Below are positions 22,785 through 33,845 of a stretch of 37,310 nucleotides of DNA, in pieces. The DNA comes from Rhodococcus sp. (in: high G+C Gram-positive bacteria) (lineage in GTDB: Bacteria; Actinomycetota; Actinomycetes; Mycobacteriales; Mycobacteriaceae). Location: positions 1 through 37,310 of the forward strand of contig JAAZAD010000245.1 of assembly GCA_012514505.1 (NCBI GenBank). The letters run 5' to 3'. The notes under the pieces were generated by a model. That model saw only the letters and a program-made list of their open reading frames with translations, ran no database searches and was not told where the DNA came from. The position numbers and the translations under genes are program-made. How positions within the stretch are numbered: the stretch's first letter is position 1; every line of letters begins with the position of its first letter.

Positions 22785-22877
22785 ATGACCGGACCTGGGG
22801 TACGACTCGTGGCACGCCGCCATGTCGATCTCAAGCGTGTCTGCAGCTGCGCATGTCAGCGTCTCGACGCGCAGTAA
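22785..22877 (+). CDS. Cys-rich leader peptide of the sirA operon
   Basis: A 30-codon ORF, MTGPGVRLVA...CSCACQRLDAQ in outline, with Arg/His-rich middle (RRHVDLKRV) and three Cys codons in five (TGC-AGC-TGC-GCA-TGT, residues 20, 22, 24). The ORF ends 129 nt before the sirA start. Cys-rich leader peptides before nirA/sirA are established in mycobacteria (the Ms4527A-type family), where they control the operon by cysteine-dependent ribosome progress. Here ATG has no SD because the transcript appears to begin at it. The ORF was found by reading; it is too short for usual gene calls. Function by analogy; sequence evidence is strong. Confidence 0.85.
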   Translation: MTGPGVRLVARRHVDLKRVCSCACQRLDAQ

Positions 22878-23006: not shown

Positions 23007-24716
23007 ATGACGTCGACCACCGACGCCCCCGCTGCCGCGCCTGCCCGGACGCGAAGCGCCAAGCCCGTGAAACGCCGCGCCGAAGGCCAGTGGGCACTCG
23101 GCTACCGGGAGCCGCTCAACCCGAACGAGCAGTCCAAGAAGGACGACAACCCACTCAACGTGCGTCGCCGAATTCTGGACATCTACTCGAAGTCCGGTTT
23201 CGACAGCATCGACAAGGGCGACCTGCGCGGACGCTTCCGTTGGATGGGCTTGTACACGCAGTGTGAGCAGGGCTACGACGGCACCTGGACCGGCGACGAC
23301 AACGCCGACCTGCTCGAAGCCTCGTACTTCATGATGCGCATCCGCACCGACGGCGGCGAGCTGAACACCGAGCAGGTGCGGACCATCGCGGGCATCTCCA
23401 AAGAGTTCGCCCGCGACACCGCCGACATCTCCGACCGCCAGAACATCCAGCTGCACTGGGTCGAAATCGAAAGCATTCCGGAGATCTGGCGCCGACTCGA
23501 GGCAGTCGGTCTCCAGACCACGGAGGCGTGCGGCGACTGCCCCCGCGGCATGCTCGGGTCACCGCTCGCCGGTTTGTCCACCGACGAGGTCATCGACGCG
23601 CGCCCCGCGCTTGCGGAGATCAAGCGTCGCTACATCGGCAACCCCGAGTACTCCAACCTGCCGCGCAAGTTCAAGACGGCCATCTCCGGCCTCCAGGACG
23701 TCGTGCACGAAATCAACGACGTGTCGTTCGTCGGCGTGAACCACCCGGAGCACGGTCCCGGGTTCGACCTGTGGGTCGGCGGCGGTCTCTCCACCAACCC
23801 GATGCTGGCCAAGCGAACAGGCGCCTGGATTCCGCTCGACGAGGTCCCGGACGTGTGGGAAGGCGTCGTCGCGATCTTCCGCGACTACGGCTACCGGCGT
23901 CTGCGCTCGAAGGCTCGGCTCAAGTTCCTCATCAAGGACTGGGGAATCGAGAAGTTCCGGGAGGTGCTCGAGACCGAGTACCTGAAGCGTCCATTGATCG
24001 ACGGACCGGCACCTGTCGCTCCCACTCACCCGATCGACCACGTCGGCGTCACGAAGCTCAAGAACGGCCTGAACTCCGTCGGTTTCTCTGCGGTGTCCGG
24101 TCGCGTATCGGGCACCATCCTCGACACACTCGCGGACGCAATGGACAAGGTCGGCAGTGACTCGGTACGTCTGACGCCGTACCAGAAGCTGGTCGTGGTC
24201 GACGTTCCCGAGGACAAGATCGCCGGGCTGGATGCAGATCTCGAAGCGGTGGGCCTCACGTCCCGCCCCTCCCGCTGGCGCCGCAACCTCATCGCCTGCA
24301 CGGGACTCGAATACTGCAAGTTGTCGTTCACCGAAACCCGCAGCCGTTCACAGGCACTGGTTCCGGAACTCGAGAAGCGTCTCGAGGAGCTGAACTCGGA
24401 CCTCGACGTCCCGATCACCATCAACATCAACGGCTGCCCGAACTCGTGCGCCCGCACGCAGGTCGCCGACATCGGATTCAAGGGCATGCTCGTCGACGAC
24501 GGCGACGGCAATCACGTCGAGGGATTCCAGGTCCACCTCGGTGGCAGCCTCGGATTCGACACCGCGTTCGGCCGCAAACTGCGCCAGCACAAGATCCTCG
24601 GAAACGAGGTCACGGACTACGTCGAACGCATCGTGCGCAACTTCATCAAGAACAAGGACGACGGCGAACGTTTCGCACAGTGGGTCGTCCGCGCAGACGA
24701 GGAGGACCTGCGATGA
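23007..24716 (+). CDS. sirA: Ferredoxin-dependent sulfite reductase (SirA/NirA)
   Basis: Reduces sulfite to sulfide with six electrons from ferredoxin, using siroheme and a [4Fe-4S] cluster. The protein has 569 residues. Cluster ligands are C431-x5-C437 (CTGLEYC) and C477-x3-C481 (CPNSC). Tyr83 (in GLYTQ) and Cys175 (in TEACGDCPR) correspond with a constant 14-residue offset to the Tyr69-Cys161 pair that is covalently linked in M. tuberculosis NirA, and the cluster ligands keep the same offset. ATG 23007 has AGGAG 6 nt upstream. It heads the operon and overlaps cysH in ATGA. Called nirA in some genomes, but context points to sulfite. Confidence 0.96.
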   Translation: MTSTTDAPAAAPARTRSAKPVKRRAEGQWALGYREPLNPNEQSKKDDNPLNVRRRILDIYSKSGFDSIDKGDLRGRFRWMGLYTQCEQGYDGTWTGDDNADLLEASYFMMRIRTDGGELNTEQVRTIAGISKEFARDTADISDRQNIQLHWVEIESIPEIWRRLEAVGLQTTEACGDCPRGMLGSPLAGLSTDEVIDARPALAEIKRRYIGNPEYSNLPRKFKTAISGLQDVVHEINDVSFVGVNHPEHGPGFDLWVGGGLSTNPMLAKRTGAWIPLDEVPDVWEGVVAIFRDYGYRRLRSKARLKFLIKDWGIEKFREVLETEYLKRPLIDGPAPVAPTHPIDHVGVTKLKNGLNSVGFSAVSGRVSGTILDTLADAMDKVGSDSVRLTPYQKLVVVDVPEDKIAGLDADLEAVGLTSRPSRWRRNLIACTGLEYCKLSFTETRSRSQALVPELEKRLEELNSDLDVPITININGCPNSCARTQVADIGFKGMLVDDGDGNHVEGFQVHLGGSLGFDTAFGRKLRQHKILGNEVTDYVERIVRNFIKNKDDGERFAQWVVRADEEDLR

Positions 24717-29598: not shown

Positions 29599-30603
29599 TT
29601 ACGACAGTGACGTCTCCGGGAGTTGAGGAACCCGGGTCGCGCGGGCGTACACCGTCTCCCCTGCCCGAAGTCCGAGCGCTTCGCTGTCACCCCGGGTCAC
29701 CTGCGCGGCGAAGAGTTCCCCGGTCGCAGCATTCACGAGATCCACACGCACCTCGAACCCGAGATGGACGACGCGCTGCACGGTTGCCCGGGTGATACCG
29801 AGTGTTTCGGCTGTGCCGGACTCTTGCGCCAATGCCAGGCTCGAGCCTCGCCCCAGTCGAATATCGTGCGGACGAACCAACTGCCCGTTCAGTTTGGCGA
29901 CGGGACCGAGAAATGACATCACGAAGCCATTGGCCGGGCGGTCGTAGAGGTCCTCGGGGACACCGACCTGCTCGATCCGTCCCTTGTTGAGTACGGCGAT
30001 CCGGTCTGCGACATCAAGGGCCTCCTCCTGATCGTGCGTGACCAGAACCGTCGTGACGTGCACCTCGTCGTGCAGGCGCCGCAACCAGGTACGCAGATCG
30101 GTGCGCACCTTCGCGTCGAGGGCTCCGAACGGTTCGTCCAGCAGGAGGACCTGCGGATCGACGGCCAGTGCACGCGCCAGCGCCATCCGCTGACGTTGAC
30201 CACCGGACAACTGGGCCGGATAGCGGTGCTGAAATCCGTCCAACCCGACGATCTGGAGCAGCTCGTCCACCCGCTTGGCGATCTCGGACTTGGGACGCTT
30301 ACGGATCTTCAACCCGAATGCGACGTTCCCGCGCACCGTCATGTGCTTGAACGCCGCATAGTGCTGAAAGACGAACCCGATGTCTCGTTTCTGCGGTGAA
30401 ACGCCGGTGACGTCCTTACCGCCGATCGTGACGATCCCGGAGTCGAGCCCCTCGAGGCCGGCAATGGCGCGGAGCAATGTCGACTTTCCCGAACCACTCG
30501 GACCCAGCAGAGCTGTCAGGCTGCCCGCCGGGATATCGATCGTCACGCCGTCGAGGGCCGCGAAGTCCCCGTAGTTCTTGCGCGCGCCGGTGACCGTGAT
30601 CAT
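29599..30603 (-). CDS. cysA: Sulfate/thiosulfate ABC transporter ATP-binding protein
   Basis: ATPase that powers sulfate import with CysT and CysW. The 334-residue protein has Walker [10 protein letters not shown] (34-42), signature LSGGQ (132-136), Walker B LLLDEP (153-158) and H-loop H190 in VTHDQ, then a TOBE-like C-terminal domain ([11 protein letters not shown]...). ATG 30603 has GAGGAG upstream and overlaps the cysW stop in ATGA. The reading frame is open further upstream inside cysW, but that extension is an artefact. Confidence 0.96.
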
Positions 30604-31406
30604 GTCGTGCTCCTCTTTCGGTCGAGCAGAGTCATCAGCAGCAAAGCGACAAGCGCAATTCCCATGAGCAGCACTGCCGCGCAGTACGCGCCGAACGTGT
30701 TGTGGTCGTCGATGTACCGCGCGTGCACCAGAAGAGTCAGCGTCTGCGACACGCCCGGAAAGCCGGAGGACACCATGATCACCGCACCGAACTCGCCGAG
30801 TGCGCGGGCAATGGTGAGGACCACTCCGTACGTCAGACCCCATCTGATCGCCGGCAGAGTCACCAGCCAGAACGTCTGCCATTTGGTGGCCCCGAGTGTG
30901 GCGGCCGCCTGCTCCTGTTCGTCACCGATTTCGTGCAGAACAGGTTCGACCTCTCGGACAACGAACGGCAAGGTCACGAATATCGTGGCCAACACCATCC
31001 CCGGCAGGCCGAATATCACTTTGAAGCCGAGGGATTCGATCCCACCGAACCAGCCGTGTACGCCCCACAGCAAGATGAGCGAGACACCGACGATGATCGG
31101 CGACACTGCGAACGGCAAGTCGACCATGGCCTGAAGTACCCCACGACCGCGAAACCGTCCACGCACCAGCGCTAGCGCCGCCACGACACCGAATACCACG
31201 TTGATCGGCACCACGATCGCAACGATGAGCAACGAGAGATTCAGCGCGGAAATGGCTGCCGGCGTGCTGATCCAGCCGAAGAACGTTCCGATGCCGTGCT
31301 CGAACGCGCGGTAGAAAATCATCAGAACCGGAACGAACAGCAATCCGAACAGGTACAGCAGGGCGATGCTGCGCAGCCCGAGCCTGACCGGCGTCGACGT
31401 CTTCAC
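30600..31406 (-). CDS. cysW: Sulfate ABC transporter permease CysW
   Basis: Inner-membrane permease of 268 residues with about six helices. The EAA-like loop that contacts CysA reads [23 protein letters not shown]. Other conserved blocks are [22 protein letters not shown] and [17 protein letters not shown]. The GTG start at 31406 overlaps the cysT TGA as GTGA. Its stop overlaps the cysA ATG. CysT and CysW form the heterodimeric pore. Confidence 0.95.
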
Positions 31407-32281
31407 GCGGCCTGCTCCTGTCGCCTTTGGTTGCGGCCGGCAAGGATCCGCAATACGAAGAGCACGATAAATGCGATCGCGAGCAGCGTCACCGATACGG
31501 CTGCGGCATTCATCTGACGGTCGATCTCGATCTGCTGCTGAATGTACTGCGACGCAACCTGAGTTTCGCCGGGGATGTTTCCGCCGATGAGCACCACGGA
31601 ACCGTATTCTCCGATTGCGCGGGCAAACGCGAGCCCTGCCCCACCGAAGATCGCCGGCGCCAACGTGGGCAGCACGACCCGTCGGAAGATCGTCACATTG
31701 TTCGCACCGAGCGATGCGGCAGCTTCCTCCACATCCATGTCGAGTTCGATCAGCACCGGCTGCACCGATCGAACGACGAAGGGAAGGGTCACGAAGGCGA
31801 GTGCCACGACGAGACCGGGCTGCGTTGCATTGAGATGAATGTCGATGGGGCTGTCGGGACCGTACAGCGACAACAGCACGATGCTCGCCACGATGGTGGG
31901 TAACGCGAACGGCAGGTCGATCAACGCGTTGACGATCCGCTTCCCAGGAAAGTCGTCGCGCACGAGGACCCACGCGATGAGGGTGCCCATCACGACATTG
32001 ATCAGGGCCACAACAGCGGAGACCAGTACGGTCACCTGCAACGTCGCCAACGCGGCCGGCTCGGTCACGGCGTCGACGAACCCGCCGATCCCGTCATCGA
32101 GGGAAGCCACCGTCAACGCGGCGAGGGGCAAGAGCACGATCACGCTCAGCCAGAGCGCCACGATTCCGATGCCGATCGGTCCTACGGCCCCCGTGACATT
32201 CATCAGCCGCGAACGATTGCCGGCCGGCACGGTCGCCTCCGAGTCTTGGATCCCGTCACCTGCGGTGTCGCGGGCGGTCAC
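31403..32281 (-). CDS. cysT: Sulfate ABC transporter permease CysT
   Basis: Inner-membrane permease of 292 residues, partner of CysW, with about six helices after an N-terminal polar segment of about 30 residues. The EAA loop is EEAAASLGANNVTIFRRVVLPTLAPAI. Also seen are LIDLPFALPTIVASIVLLSLYG and AIGEYGSVVLIGGNIPG. GTG 32281 was chosen because CGAGGTGA (about 32297-32290) is spaced about 8 nt upstream, and it begins 7 nt after the subI stop. GTG 32305 would overlap subI by 17 nt. Confidence 0.93.
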   Translation of the reverse strand: MTARDTAGDGIQDSEATVPAGNRSRLMNVTGAVGPIGIGIVALWLSVIVLLPLAALTVASLDDGIGGFVDAVTEPAALATLQVTVLVSAVVALINVVMGTLIAWVLVRDDFPGKRIVNALIDLPFALPTIVASIVLLSLYGPDSPIDIHLNATQPGLVVALAFVTLPFVVRSVQPVLIELDMDVEEAAASLGANNVTIFRRVVLPTLAPAIFGGAGLAFARAIGEYGSVVLIGGNIPGETQVASQYIQQQIEIDRQMNAAAVSVTLLAIAFIVLFVLRILAGRNQRRQEQAA

Positions 32282-32288
32282 GGCGCCG

Positions 32289-33317
32289 TCACCTCGTCGC
32301 GTCACCGTAGATCCTCGCGATCGCGCCCACGTCCTGCTGGAACAGGTCGGCGTTCACTGTCGGCCAACCACCCAGATCATCGATCGTGTAAAGGCGCTCC
32401 GGCTCGAGAAACTTGTCCGCGAACTCCTTGGCAACCCCGGGATCGACCGGACGGAATCCTGCCTCGGCCCACAATCGTTGCGCCTCCGACGTGTAGAGGA
32501 AGTCCTGGAATGCACTGGCCTTGGCGAGGTCCTGACTGTGCTGAACCACCGCCACCGAATTCTCGATGTCGAATGTTGTCGGCGGCGTGATGTGTTCGAC
32601 AGGTTCGCCCTCCGCTTCGATGAACAGTGCTTCGTTCTCGTAGCTGAGCAGCGCGTCGCCTGCCCCTTGCAAGAAGGCCTCCGTAGCCTCACGCCCCGAC
32701 TTCGGCTGAATCCGGACGTGCTCGTCGATCAATTGTTCCACGTACTCGAGTCCGGCCTGAGGGTTCTGGCCGCCATCGCTCTTGGCTGCATACGGTGCCA
32801 AGAGATTCCATTTTGCCGAGCCCGAACTGAAGGGATTCGGTGTGACCACCTCGATCCCCGGCCTCAGGAGATCGTCCCAGTCGCGAATCCCCTTCGGGTT
32901 GCCCTCCCGCACGACGATCGTGACTACGGATCCGAACGGCGAGCCGCCGTAGGCGTCCTCGTTCCAGTCCTCCGCCACGAGTCCCGCATCCACCAATCGA
33001 GTCATGTCGGGTTCCACGGAAAAGCTGACGAAATCTGCCGGCGCGCCGTCCTTGGTCTTACGTGACTGGTCACCCGATGCCCCGTACGACTGATGAAACT
33101 CGACGTCCTCGCCTGCCTCGGTCTCCTGGAACGCCGGAATCACCTTCTCGAACCCGACCTTGGCCACGGCGTAGGCGTACAAGTTGACCGTTCCGGCTTC
33201 GCCGCCGGAGTCCGGTTCGGCACCCGGAACATCGCTCGAGCCGCCGCTGCACGCGCTCACCGCCATCACCGTCACCGCAGCCAGTGCGGCGAACATCAGA
33301 CGCGAGCGTCGTCTCAT
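32289..33317 (-). CDS. subI: Sulfate-binding lipoprotein SubI (Sbp)
   Basis: Extracytoplasmic sulfate-binding component of the CysTWA importer. The 342-residue precursor begins with MRRRSRLMFAALAAVTVMAV and then SAC, a lipobox (AVSAC) with lipidated Cys23. Mature sequence has the type-II solute-binding fold: LYAYAVAKVGFEKVIPAFQ, HQSYGASGDQSRKTKDG, PADFVSFSVEPDMTRLVDAGL, VTPNPFSSGSAKWNLLAPYA and SYENEALF, all typical of sulfate-binding proteins. ATG 33317 lies 9 nt after AAAGG of the SD, which is the target of the anti-SD element in its leader. First gene of the import operon. Confidence 0.95.
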   Translation of the reverse strand: MRRRSRLMFAALAAVTVMAVSACSGGSSDVPGAEPDSGGEAGTVNLYAYAVAKVGFEKVIPAFQETEAGEDVEFHQSYGASGDQSRKTKDGAPADFVSFSVEPDMTRLVDAGLVAEDWNEDAYGGSPFGSVVTIVVREGNPKGIRDWDDLLRPGIEVVTPNPFSSGSAKWNLLAPYAAKSDGGQNPQAGLEYVEQLIDEHVRIQPKSGREATEAFLQGAGDALLSYENEALFIEAEGEPVEHITPPTTFDIENSVAVVQHSQDLAKASAFQDFLYTSEAQRLWAEAGFRPVDPGVAKEFADKFLEPERLYTIDDLGGWPTVNADLFQQDVGAIARIYGDATR

Positions 33318-33326
33318 GTCGGGCAA

Positions 33327-33437
33327 CCTTTCGGATGGGCCGCACTCGCGGCAGTCGAATGGAGAGAGGAATCGAACGATCAACTGACCGAACGGCATTC
33401 GTTCGCCACCCGAAGGCCGGATCAGCCCACCGAAAGG
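33327..33437 (-). promoter_or_regulatory. subI attenuator: SD and anti-SD pair
   Basis: In the minus-strand RNA, CCTTTCGGTGGG (33437-33426) directly follows the leader stop. It can pair with CCCATCCGAAAGG (33339-33327), which holds the subI SD (GAAAGG). The match is 8 bp plus 4 bp with a single bulged base. A ribosome paused at Cys28-Cys29 of the leader would cover the upstream strand and free the SD. The 86 nt between the elements holds the loop. Confidence 0.7.
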
Positions 33438-33438
33438 G

Positions 33439-33531
33439 CTATCGGCAACAGTCGATGTCAGCGACCGCGGACGCGCCGACTGCGATCAACGCCAACTCGT
33501 GGCGGACCTGGTGGGCGGCAGTATCGGGCAC
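33439..33531 (-). CDS. Cys-rich leader peptide of the subI operon
   Basis: A 30-codon ORF starting GTG (MPDTAAHQVRHELALIAVGA in its first 20 residues) and ending ADIDCCR with adjacent Cys codons TGT-TGC (33450-33445) two codons before the stop region. It has the same length as the sirA leader. Cys-rich leaders before the sulfate-import operon are known in mycobacteria (Ms4533A-type family), where they repress downstream translation when cysteine is plentiful. The stop TAG (33439-33441) is 1 nt before the anti-SD element, the spacing expected of this mechanism. There is no SD; leaderless initiation is proposed. Strong sequence support, function by analogy. Confidence 0.85.
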   Translation of the reverse strand: MPDTAAHQVRHELALIAVGASAVADIDCCR

Positions 33532-33544
33532 GGAGCCGACTTTA
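33532..33544 (-). promoter_or_regulatory. -10 element of the leaderless subI leader
   Basis: On the minus strand TAAAGT (33544-33539, TANNNT type) is followed by exactly 7 nt (CGGCTCC) and then GTG. The spacer differs from that of the sirA leader (CGGTCTC) by two bases. The expected start of transcription is the G of GTG. No clear -35 at 17 nt. Confidence 0.6.
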
Positions 33545-33575
33545 TCAGGTAGCCGATGCACCACCCGAAACGAAG

Positions 33576-33653
33576 TCAGAGTGTCAACAGCCATGCGACG
33601 ACGACGAGGATCAGCAAGGCGATCAGCGCCAGTGTGACTCGTGAACGCGGCAT
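33576..33653 (-). CDS. 25-aa single-helix membrane peptide
   Basis: A 25-codon ORF: basic start MPRSR followed by one uninterrupted hydrophobic helix (VTLALIALLILVVVAWLLTL). ATG 33653 follows directly after the TAG of the 63-aa gene (33654-33656), and GGAGG (33666-33662) lies 8 nt upstream, so coupled translation is likely. Positive-inside topology is predicted. Function unknown; it ends 32 nt before the subI leader -10. It is below normal gene-calling length. Confidence 0.6.
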   Translation of the reverse strand: MPRSRVTLALIALLILVVVAWLLTL

Positions 33654-33845
33654 CTACGGATCCTCCGATTTCGACGTGTCTCTGCGAAGCAGGACGAATA
33701 TCGCGGCAAGTCCACGATCGAGCAGCCACGCGAGCGCAGCACACAGTGGGACCAGCACGAGCAGCACCAGAACGACCTGCGGGACGAACGGAAGTCCGAC
33801 AACCCACAATTCGAAGCTGTCCCACCACCCTGCCGCGCGTTCCAT
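33654..33845 (-). CDS. Small membrane protein, 63 aa
   Basis: Protein of 63 residues: a polar start (MERAAGWWDSFELW), two hydrophobic helices (about 15-35 and 36-53: VVGLPFVPQVVLVLLVLVPLCAALAWLLD, then LAAIFVLLRR) and a charged tail (DTSKSEDP). A small membrane gene lies at this place in mycobacteria (Rv2401A-like), which supports it. Function unknown. Start ATG 33845 has only a weak SD. It is followed without a gap by the 25-aa ORF. Confidence 0.7.
   Translation of the reverse strand: MERAAGWWDSFELWVVGLPFVPQVVLVLLVLVPLCAALAWLLDRGLAAIFVLLRRDTSKSEDP

Follow-up and report, generated by a model that had tools for sequence, protein, structure and literature searches.

The window, by which we mean the whole 37,310-nt stretch of DNA analysed here, contains a short leader ORF with terminal cysteine codons upstream of subI and three further genes of a sulfate ABC importer (Table 1). 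The leader, VPDTAAHQVRHELALIAVGASAVADIDCCR, consists of 30 sense codons from a GTG at 33531 and ends with a TAG at 33441-33439 on the minus strand, as the first-pass annotation had claimed. Its stop lies 121 nt before the ATG of subI on the same strand. The last codons read UGU UGC CGA UAG. Two adjacent Cys codons are thus present, but they do not stand directly before the stop, as had been stated, since one Arg codon (CGA) intervenes.

Table 1. Features of the leader and importer region, with their positions in the window
Feature	Positions	Strand	Basis
-10-like TAAAGT, 7 nt before GTG; leaderless promoter by spacing	33539..33544	minus	sequence
Leader ORF, 30 aa, Ms4533A family (NF042937)	33439..33531	minus	NCBIfam match
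Hairpin CGCCA-CGAGU-UGGCG, codons 10-14	33490..33504	minus	conservation of pairs
Cys codons 28 (UGU, 33450-33448) and 29 (UGC, 33447-33445), presumed stall site	33445..33450	minus	
Anti-SD element CCTTTCGGTGGG, one nt after leader stop	33426..33437	minus	sequence and fold
Sequestered stretch CCCATCCGAAAGG with SD GAAAGG (33327-33332)	33327..33339	minus	sequence and fold
CCTTTCGG and CCGAAAGG, partner segments in the SD:anti-SD stem			
subI, sulfate-binding lipoprotein, 342 aa	32289..33317	minus	TIGR00971 163.5 bits (cut-off 155.5), SBP_bac_11
Sulfate ABC permease, cysT-like, start codon not fixed	31403..32305	minus	BPD_transp_1; name from gene order
Sulfate ABC permease, cysW-like, start approximate	30600..31400	minus	BPD_transp_1; name from gene order
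ABC ATPase, cysA-like, start approximate	29599..30600	minus	ABC_tran, TOBE_3; name from gene order

The leader ORF matched NF042937, 'Ms4533A family Cys-rich leader peptide', with 48.9 bits against a cut-off of 31 (5.6e-13), which agrees with the Ms4533A type that had been proposed for it. Judged by this match, it is a further member of a leader family that is already catalogued, and the original claim was therefore mostly a rediscovery in another genus. It shares with the Ms4533A family the peptide HMM, the leaderless spacing, the terminal Cys codons, and the site before subI. Within the taxonomic family, NF042937 matched in 165 of 301 genomes (151 above the cut-off), while the 14 control genomes gave no match. 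In an order-level draw of 200 genomes it was found in 21 (18 above the cut-off), and three of the matches in that draw, one of them above the cut-off, lay outside the taxonomic family. No Rfam family matched in the window at the gathering score.

In 122 of the 135 leader rows of the comparison set described below, a TANNNT box precedes the start codon by exactly 7 nt; the script that located leader starts demanded a TA...T box within 16 nt of the start and left the exact spacing free. The start codon was GTG in 124 of these rows. Promoter spacing and its conservation together suggest that the leader mRNA is leaderless, with its 5' end at the start codon. At E <= 1e-60, subI was found in 320 of 401 genomes. 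The operon imports sulfate, the sulfur source for cysteine, and we counted this in favor of cysteine-responsive control. Between the leader and a nitronate-monooxygenase-like gene there are two ORFs of 63 and 25 aa (33654-33845 and 33576-33653, minus strand); neither had an NCBIfam match, and the 63-aa ORF had no Pfam match either.

Predicted pairing of the subI SD and its simulated relief by a ribosome

The first-pass annotation had described an element just past the leader stop that complements the subI SD region, and both partners are present. CCCATCCGAAAGG complements CCTTTCGGTGGG in 8+4 pairs with a one-nt bulge across a distance of 86 nt, and the SD GAAAGG stands 9 nt before the subI ATG at 33317. 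The minimum-energy fold joins the two segments, so the SD is paired in the default fold, as the annotation had expected. To set this against chance, 200 dinucleotide shuffles of the intergenic stretch were used as the null. Opening the SD cost 9.2 kcal/mol in the window, compared with 4.0 +/- 1.6 kcal/mol in the shuffles, of which only two reached 9.2. The stability of the whole 235-nt leader fold was unexceptional (z -0.99). The folding model thus makes a convincing case that the SD is sequestered in the window's genome beyond shuffled expectation. The attenuation by polycysteine leaders that Canestrari described in 2020 reportedly works by masking of the ribosome-binding site, and the structure predicted here is of that sequestering type. 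A search for intrinsic terminators (a hairpin followed by a T run) in 33250-33700 found none.

We then simulated a ribosome on the leader by blocking its footprint and recomputing the SD opening energy, with the 3' edge counted from the first P-site nucleotide. With the edge at +15, the energies for an A site on codon 28, 29, 30, or the stop were 10.6, 4.7, 1.6, and 2.7 kcal/mol, compared with 9.2 kcal/mol for the free RNA. The corresponding values were 7.8, 3.8, 2.1, and 3.6 kcal/mol at +16, and 4.2, 1.9, 3.8, and 4.8 kcal/mol at +18. In the model, the geometry therefore fits a ribosome that has reached at least the second Cys codon, and whether the first Cys codon would suffice depends on the footprint. 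The earlier proposal that the SD is uncovered when Cys codons are decoded slowly accordingly stood in these calculations for UGC29 (4.7 and 3.8 kcal/mol at the two shorter edges), but not for UGU28 unless the edge lay at +18. A ribosome at the stop codon also opened the SD, and the switch would thus have to depend on how long the ribosome dwells. Among the 113 other leaders, no relief of 5 kcal/mol or more was seen with the ribosome on the codon following the first Cys or on the stop codon; in one leader of group g42 (L122), a relief of 5.5 kcal/mol appeared at the first Cys codon.

Two other pairings were considered. A Trp-like alternative would pair GCCCACC, spanning codons 5-8, with the GGUGGGC that lies in the anti-SD element. 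This pairing arises in growing transcripts with a probability of up to 0.9 and loses once the SD is made. GCCCACC also precedes the core in seven other distinct leaders, all from g10 loci. The fold of the window also hinted that the leader core might pair over a long range with the start codons of subI. This was rejected, because leaders with their own subI (-12.51) did no better than swaps with other genera (-12.57) or shuffles (-12.47).

A conserved leader and a proposed SD switch that varies

The comparison set was built from 80 fetched regions, hand-chosen among the matches listed for subI and NF042937, together with earlier loci, and comprised 140 subI rows from 136 distinct places. A motif scan found the leader core before subI in 135 of the 140 rows. 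The set held 119 distinct leaders; dropping the five rows without the core motif (L109, L110, L116, L129, and L132) and 21 near-identical ones left 114 non-redundant intergenic stretches, the window included. Two of the five, L109 and L110, lack the motif yet carry a diverged leader. For the analysis of the 114 stretches, the subI start of L113 was set by hand. Genus groups are given by number; that g50 is Mycobacterium-like and g1, the window's group, Rhodococcus-like is by inference only.

SD masking was not a general property of this set. Over the 114 stretches the mean SD opening energy was 5.0 kcal/mol both as observed and as shuffled (mean z -0.01, Wilcoxon p 0.21); 49 stretches lay above their own null mean and 12 reached p <= 1/16. 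The annotation had staked its reading on conservation of the stem in related species, and this expectation failed: in the window's genus only one of 18 stretches, namely the window, reached p <= 1/16. The failure counts against the pairing as a trait of the family and leaves the ORF untouched, since NF042937 matched in 165 of 301 genomes. An anti-SD element after the stop was likewise rejected as a family feature, as complementarity to the SD was not enriched across the relatives and opening energies equaled the shuffled expectation. The window's SD pairing thus appears to be real but lineage-specific, and it is not a design that the sampled relatives, none of them close, have in common.

Mean z exceeded 1 in three genera, g50 (8/8 above the null), g42 (3/3), and g45 (2/2). 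The masking in g50 was robust, since nine g50 leaders with a correct start were also above the null in another fold run. That in g42 and g45 was fragile, with L119 (g42) and L123 (g45) falling below the null when the fold ends were changed slightly. The Ms4533A leaders of g50 resemble the window in having a sequestered SD and differ in how it is held: in 8 of 10 of them the main SD partner lies 64-81 nt past the stop, whereas in the window the partner begins one nt past it. The other two had one SD partner inside the ORF and one mis-called start. Six of eight g50 leaders already gained at least 1 kcal/mol of relief with the ribosome on the first Cys codon, whereas in the window relief came only at the second. 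We take g50 to be the group in which cysteine-dependent attenuation was published.

The leader itself is far more uniform. Start and core are 12 codons apart in 134 of 135 rows, and 133 of the 135 have a spacing of 15 codons between the core and the first Cys. All 119 distinct leaders use TGT for the Cys at the fixed position, codon 28 of the window, whereas the subI genes of the comparison set use TGC for the lipobox Cys in 123 of 131. Recoding by SubI codon usage gave 14 TGT on average and at most 22. The leaders are related and the TGT counts are not independent events. The first of the terminal Cys codons was TGT in 118 of 119, the exception (L112) having one TGC ahead of it. Third positions of neighboring codons nevertheless vary despite this relatedness, as in Asp (86 GAC, 33 GAT). 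The UGU of these leaders is presumably decoded by wobble. Three candidate loci for tRNA-Cys in the genome gave no tRNA.

A second adjacent Cys codon is replaced by Arg in 40 of the 119 distinct leaders, including all 17 of g44. In 30 leaders a single Cys is the only one in the whole peptide, while 10 of the 40 CR leaders carry another Cys further up. Ms4533A-type leaders ending CR* were seen in L071-L087 (g44) and in others, and scanning for consecutive Cys codons would overlook one-Cys and CR* leaders. In g10, six loci (L059, L061, L062, L063, L065, and L066) have tandem subI copies, each with its own Ms4533A-type leader; in four of the six, the two leaders differ at their ends, with CR in one and CC in the other.

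The peptide core is, as judged from substitution ratios, under amino-acid selection. In a random 60 of the 119 leaders, pN/pS was 0.16 for RHELALIAVG and 0.08 for VADI plus the Cys, compared with 0.64 for the eight counted codons that precede the core and run into it. All 119 distinct leaders have the Val and Asp of VAD; the finding motif permits only similar residues in the core (V/L, A/S, and D/E for VAD) and so favors conserved leaders.

A short hairpin lies inside the ORF. All five pairs of CGCCA-N5-UGGCG were present in 116 of the 119 distinct leaders (the exceptions being L028, L108, and L113), and without exception in 13 of 15 genera. Synonymous recoding gave a mean of 18.4 and a maximum of 28 of 119, and when the arms were slid, no hairpin was found in 119 at any slide from -3 to +3. 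Codon choice in the hairpin was biased, with CGC for Arg in 110 of 110 (48% of Arg codons in SubI) and GCG for Ala in 111 of 118 (36%). Six g50 leaders have both arms altered (GGCCA/UGGCC), a compensatory change. When the 3' arms were shuffled among sequences, the hairpin count still averaged 103.9 with a maximum of 112; the contrast is weak, as one arm pair is shared by 109 of the 119 leaders. The mean pairing probability of the hairpin over 114 leaders was 0.905. In 97 of 119, the stem is extended past a two-nt bulge by three outer pairs.

These leaders thus do not look like bare counters of Cys codons, given the conserved core, the invariant UGU, the hairpin, and the 40 of 119 that lack a second adjacent Cys. 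The sensor is conserved over many genera and the proposed SD switch is not. This makes it testable whether cysteine leaders work by codon starvation alone or also through peptide arrest and RNA structure.

Proposed mechanism and alternative explanations

We consider it probable that the locus is a cysteine-responsive translational attenuator of the sulfate importer operon and belongs to the Ms4533A family; that the leader as such responds to cysteine is very likely. In the mechanism that we infer, including the stalling, the direction of regulation, and the roles of hairpin, UGU, and peptide, transcription would begin at G33531 or an adjacent nucleotide, and the 5'-terminal GUG would serve a 70S ribosome for initiation, as promoter spacing and conservation suggest. 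When Cys-tRNA is plentiful, the ribosome would pass both Cys codons, terminate, and depart, as expected from homology. The post-stop element would then pair with the subI SD, as in the computed fold, and subI and the operon would be translated little. When Cys-tRNA is short, the ribosome would dwell on the Cys codons, and from codon 29 on its 3' edge is predicted to cover the anti-SD element and free the SD. The core VAD(I/V)xC, the invariant UGU, and the hairpin of codons 10-14 probably tune the dwell time. In most sampled genera, where the stretch behind the same sensor is C-rich and the SD is not sequestered above chance, the output step probably differs.

The same leader and the same cysteine sensing might instead act through Rho-dependent transcription termination between leader and subI, in a tna-like manner. 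Seliverstov et al. (2005, PMC1262725) proposed such an output for mycobacterial cys operons, and in the portion of that paper available to us rate their own prediction as rather weak. In relatives the leader-subI stretch is C-rich, with C exceeding G in 112 of 116, and its densest 78-nt C excess is above that of the upstream control in 87 of 109; most sampled genera also show no SD sequestration above chance. The window, however, lacks such a C-rich stretch: its C-G value of 0.02 is the smallest among the 18 of its genus, and the densest C excess is the same as in the upstream control (0.05 in both). Over 114 leaders, masking and C excess were weakly anticorrelated (rho -0.27, p 0.004). At the genus level the relation was not significant (rho -0.39, p 0.15), so for the C-rich genera an output of the Rho type is only a suggestion, and as an explanation of the locus we regard it as distinctly unlikely. 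It is also unlikely that the window's anti-SD complement is a chance pairing and that the leader acts on subI by translational coupling or some other route. The pairing is without conservation in relatives and was spotted after the whole window had been read, both of which would suit chance; against this, just 2 of 200 shuffles reach its SD opening energy, and the element occupies the place that a ribosome terminating or stalling late would cover.

Two further explanations concern the conserved parts of the leader. The inverted repeat CGCCA-N5-TGGCG, which as DNA is perfectly palindromic and spans +28 to +42 relative to the inferred start, might be an operator at which a repressor regulates the operon, with the leader incidental. 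We judge this highly improbable: the genome holds 16 sites with the palindrome and 16 with a reversed control pattern, G-T wobble in the outer pairs and the asymmetric bulge suit RNA, and leader peptide and UGU are conserved independently. A nascent-peptide arrest, in which the core in the exit tunnel and the Cys residue or Cys-tRNA hold the ribosome beyond what codon starvation alone would do, deserves more weight, although we still see it as somewhat unlikely. It would fit the low pN/pS of the core, the invariant Val and Asp, the Arg in place of the second Cys in a third of leaders (40 of 119, with one Cys in 30), and the constant spacing between core and Cys (133 of 135 rows). Conservation, however, is no demonstration of arrest; the core also partly overlaps the hairpin, which constrains codons as well, and the leader-finding motif, passed by 135 of 140 rows, favors conserved cores.

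Beyond the attenuator that we favor for the window, a broader reading of the family can be put forward tentatively, as a possibility that we would not yet bet on. The Ms4533A leader would be a composite sensor with an exchangeable output that has been rewired between lineages. Its four parts, held at fixed distances, would be a 5'-terminal start codon, the hairpin at +28 to +42, the core LALIAVG..AVAD, and an obligatory UGU at +82. A run of Cys codons would be dispensable, and arrest would need the peptide, the wobble-decoded UGU, and Cys-tRNA jointly. Outputs would be SD masking in the Mycobacterium-like group, a different, post-stop SD masking in the window, and a C-rich, Rho-like output in most others.

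Relation to known leaders and a second cysteine leader in the window

Cysteine-responsive attenuation in M. smegmatis is attributed to Canestrari (2020) in the accessible text of PMC9031893, PMC9094748, PMC13236596, and PMC7790235, and Shell (2015) is the source of the speculation that cysteine uORFs are attenuators (PMC4633059, in the part available). The available parts of PMC4833913 and PMC11133741 contain nothing on cysteine leaders of this kind, and the name Ms4533A had no match in the literature searched. In the accessible literature on Cys leaders, UGU codons, and arrest peptides, which mostly excluded subscription journals and was searched without terms for the hairpin itself, we noticed no report of the UGU rule or the hairpin.

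The mycobacterial cys leaders described in the consulted part of Seliverstov (PMC1262725) are likewise short, with Cys codons near the stop and no conserved terminator hairpin. They differ in the output, for which Rho-dependent termination was proposed, whereas in the window the SD is predicted to be sequestered and the stretch is not C-rich. TnaC of E. coli is, according to the available text of PMC10941005, also a leader peptide in which conserved residues matter. TnaC arrests at high Trp, whereas an Ms4533A-type leader would be expected to answer low Cys. In the ilvB1 leader of mycobacteria, the position of the ribosome on regulatory codons likewise selects the mRNA structure; as far as the available text of PMC13236596 goes, ilvB1 uses an intrinsic terminator, whereas none was found in the leader region of the window.

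A second cysteine leader, MTGPGVRLVARRHVDLKRVCSCACQRLDAQ, lies on the plus strand of the same window at 22785-22877. It scored 43.3 bits (41.9 in another run) against NF042936 (leader_Ms4527A), below the cut-off of 45. It stands 129 nt before the ATG at 23007 of a nitrite/sulfite-reductase-like gene, named from matches under the cut-offs, and this gene is followed by CysD and CysN, both above the cut-off. Ms4527A (NF042936) is likewise a Cys leader of sulfur assimilation, but its peptide (CSCAC) differs, and UGC encodes the first two Cys. With UGC, UGC, and UGU as its Cys codons, the leader at 22785-22877 shows that the UGU rule does not extend to all Cys leaders. Elsewhere in the same genome, at 7127-7183 of contig C341 (G000, L147), a further putative attenuator leader matched NF042934 (cis_reg_atten) with 30.8 bits, above the cut-off of 27.
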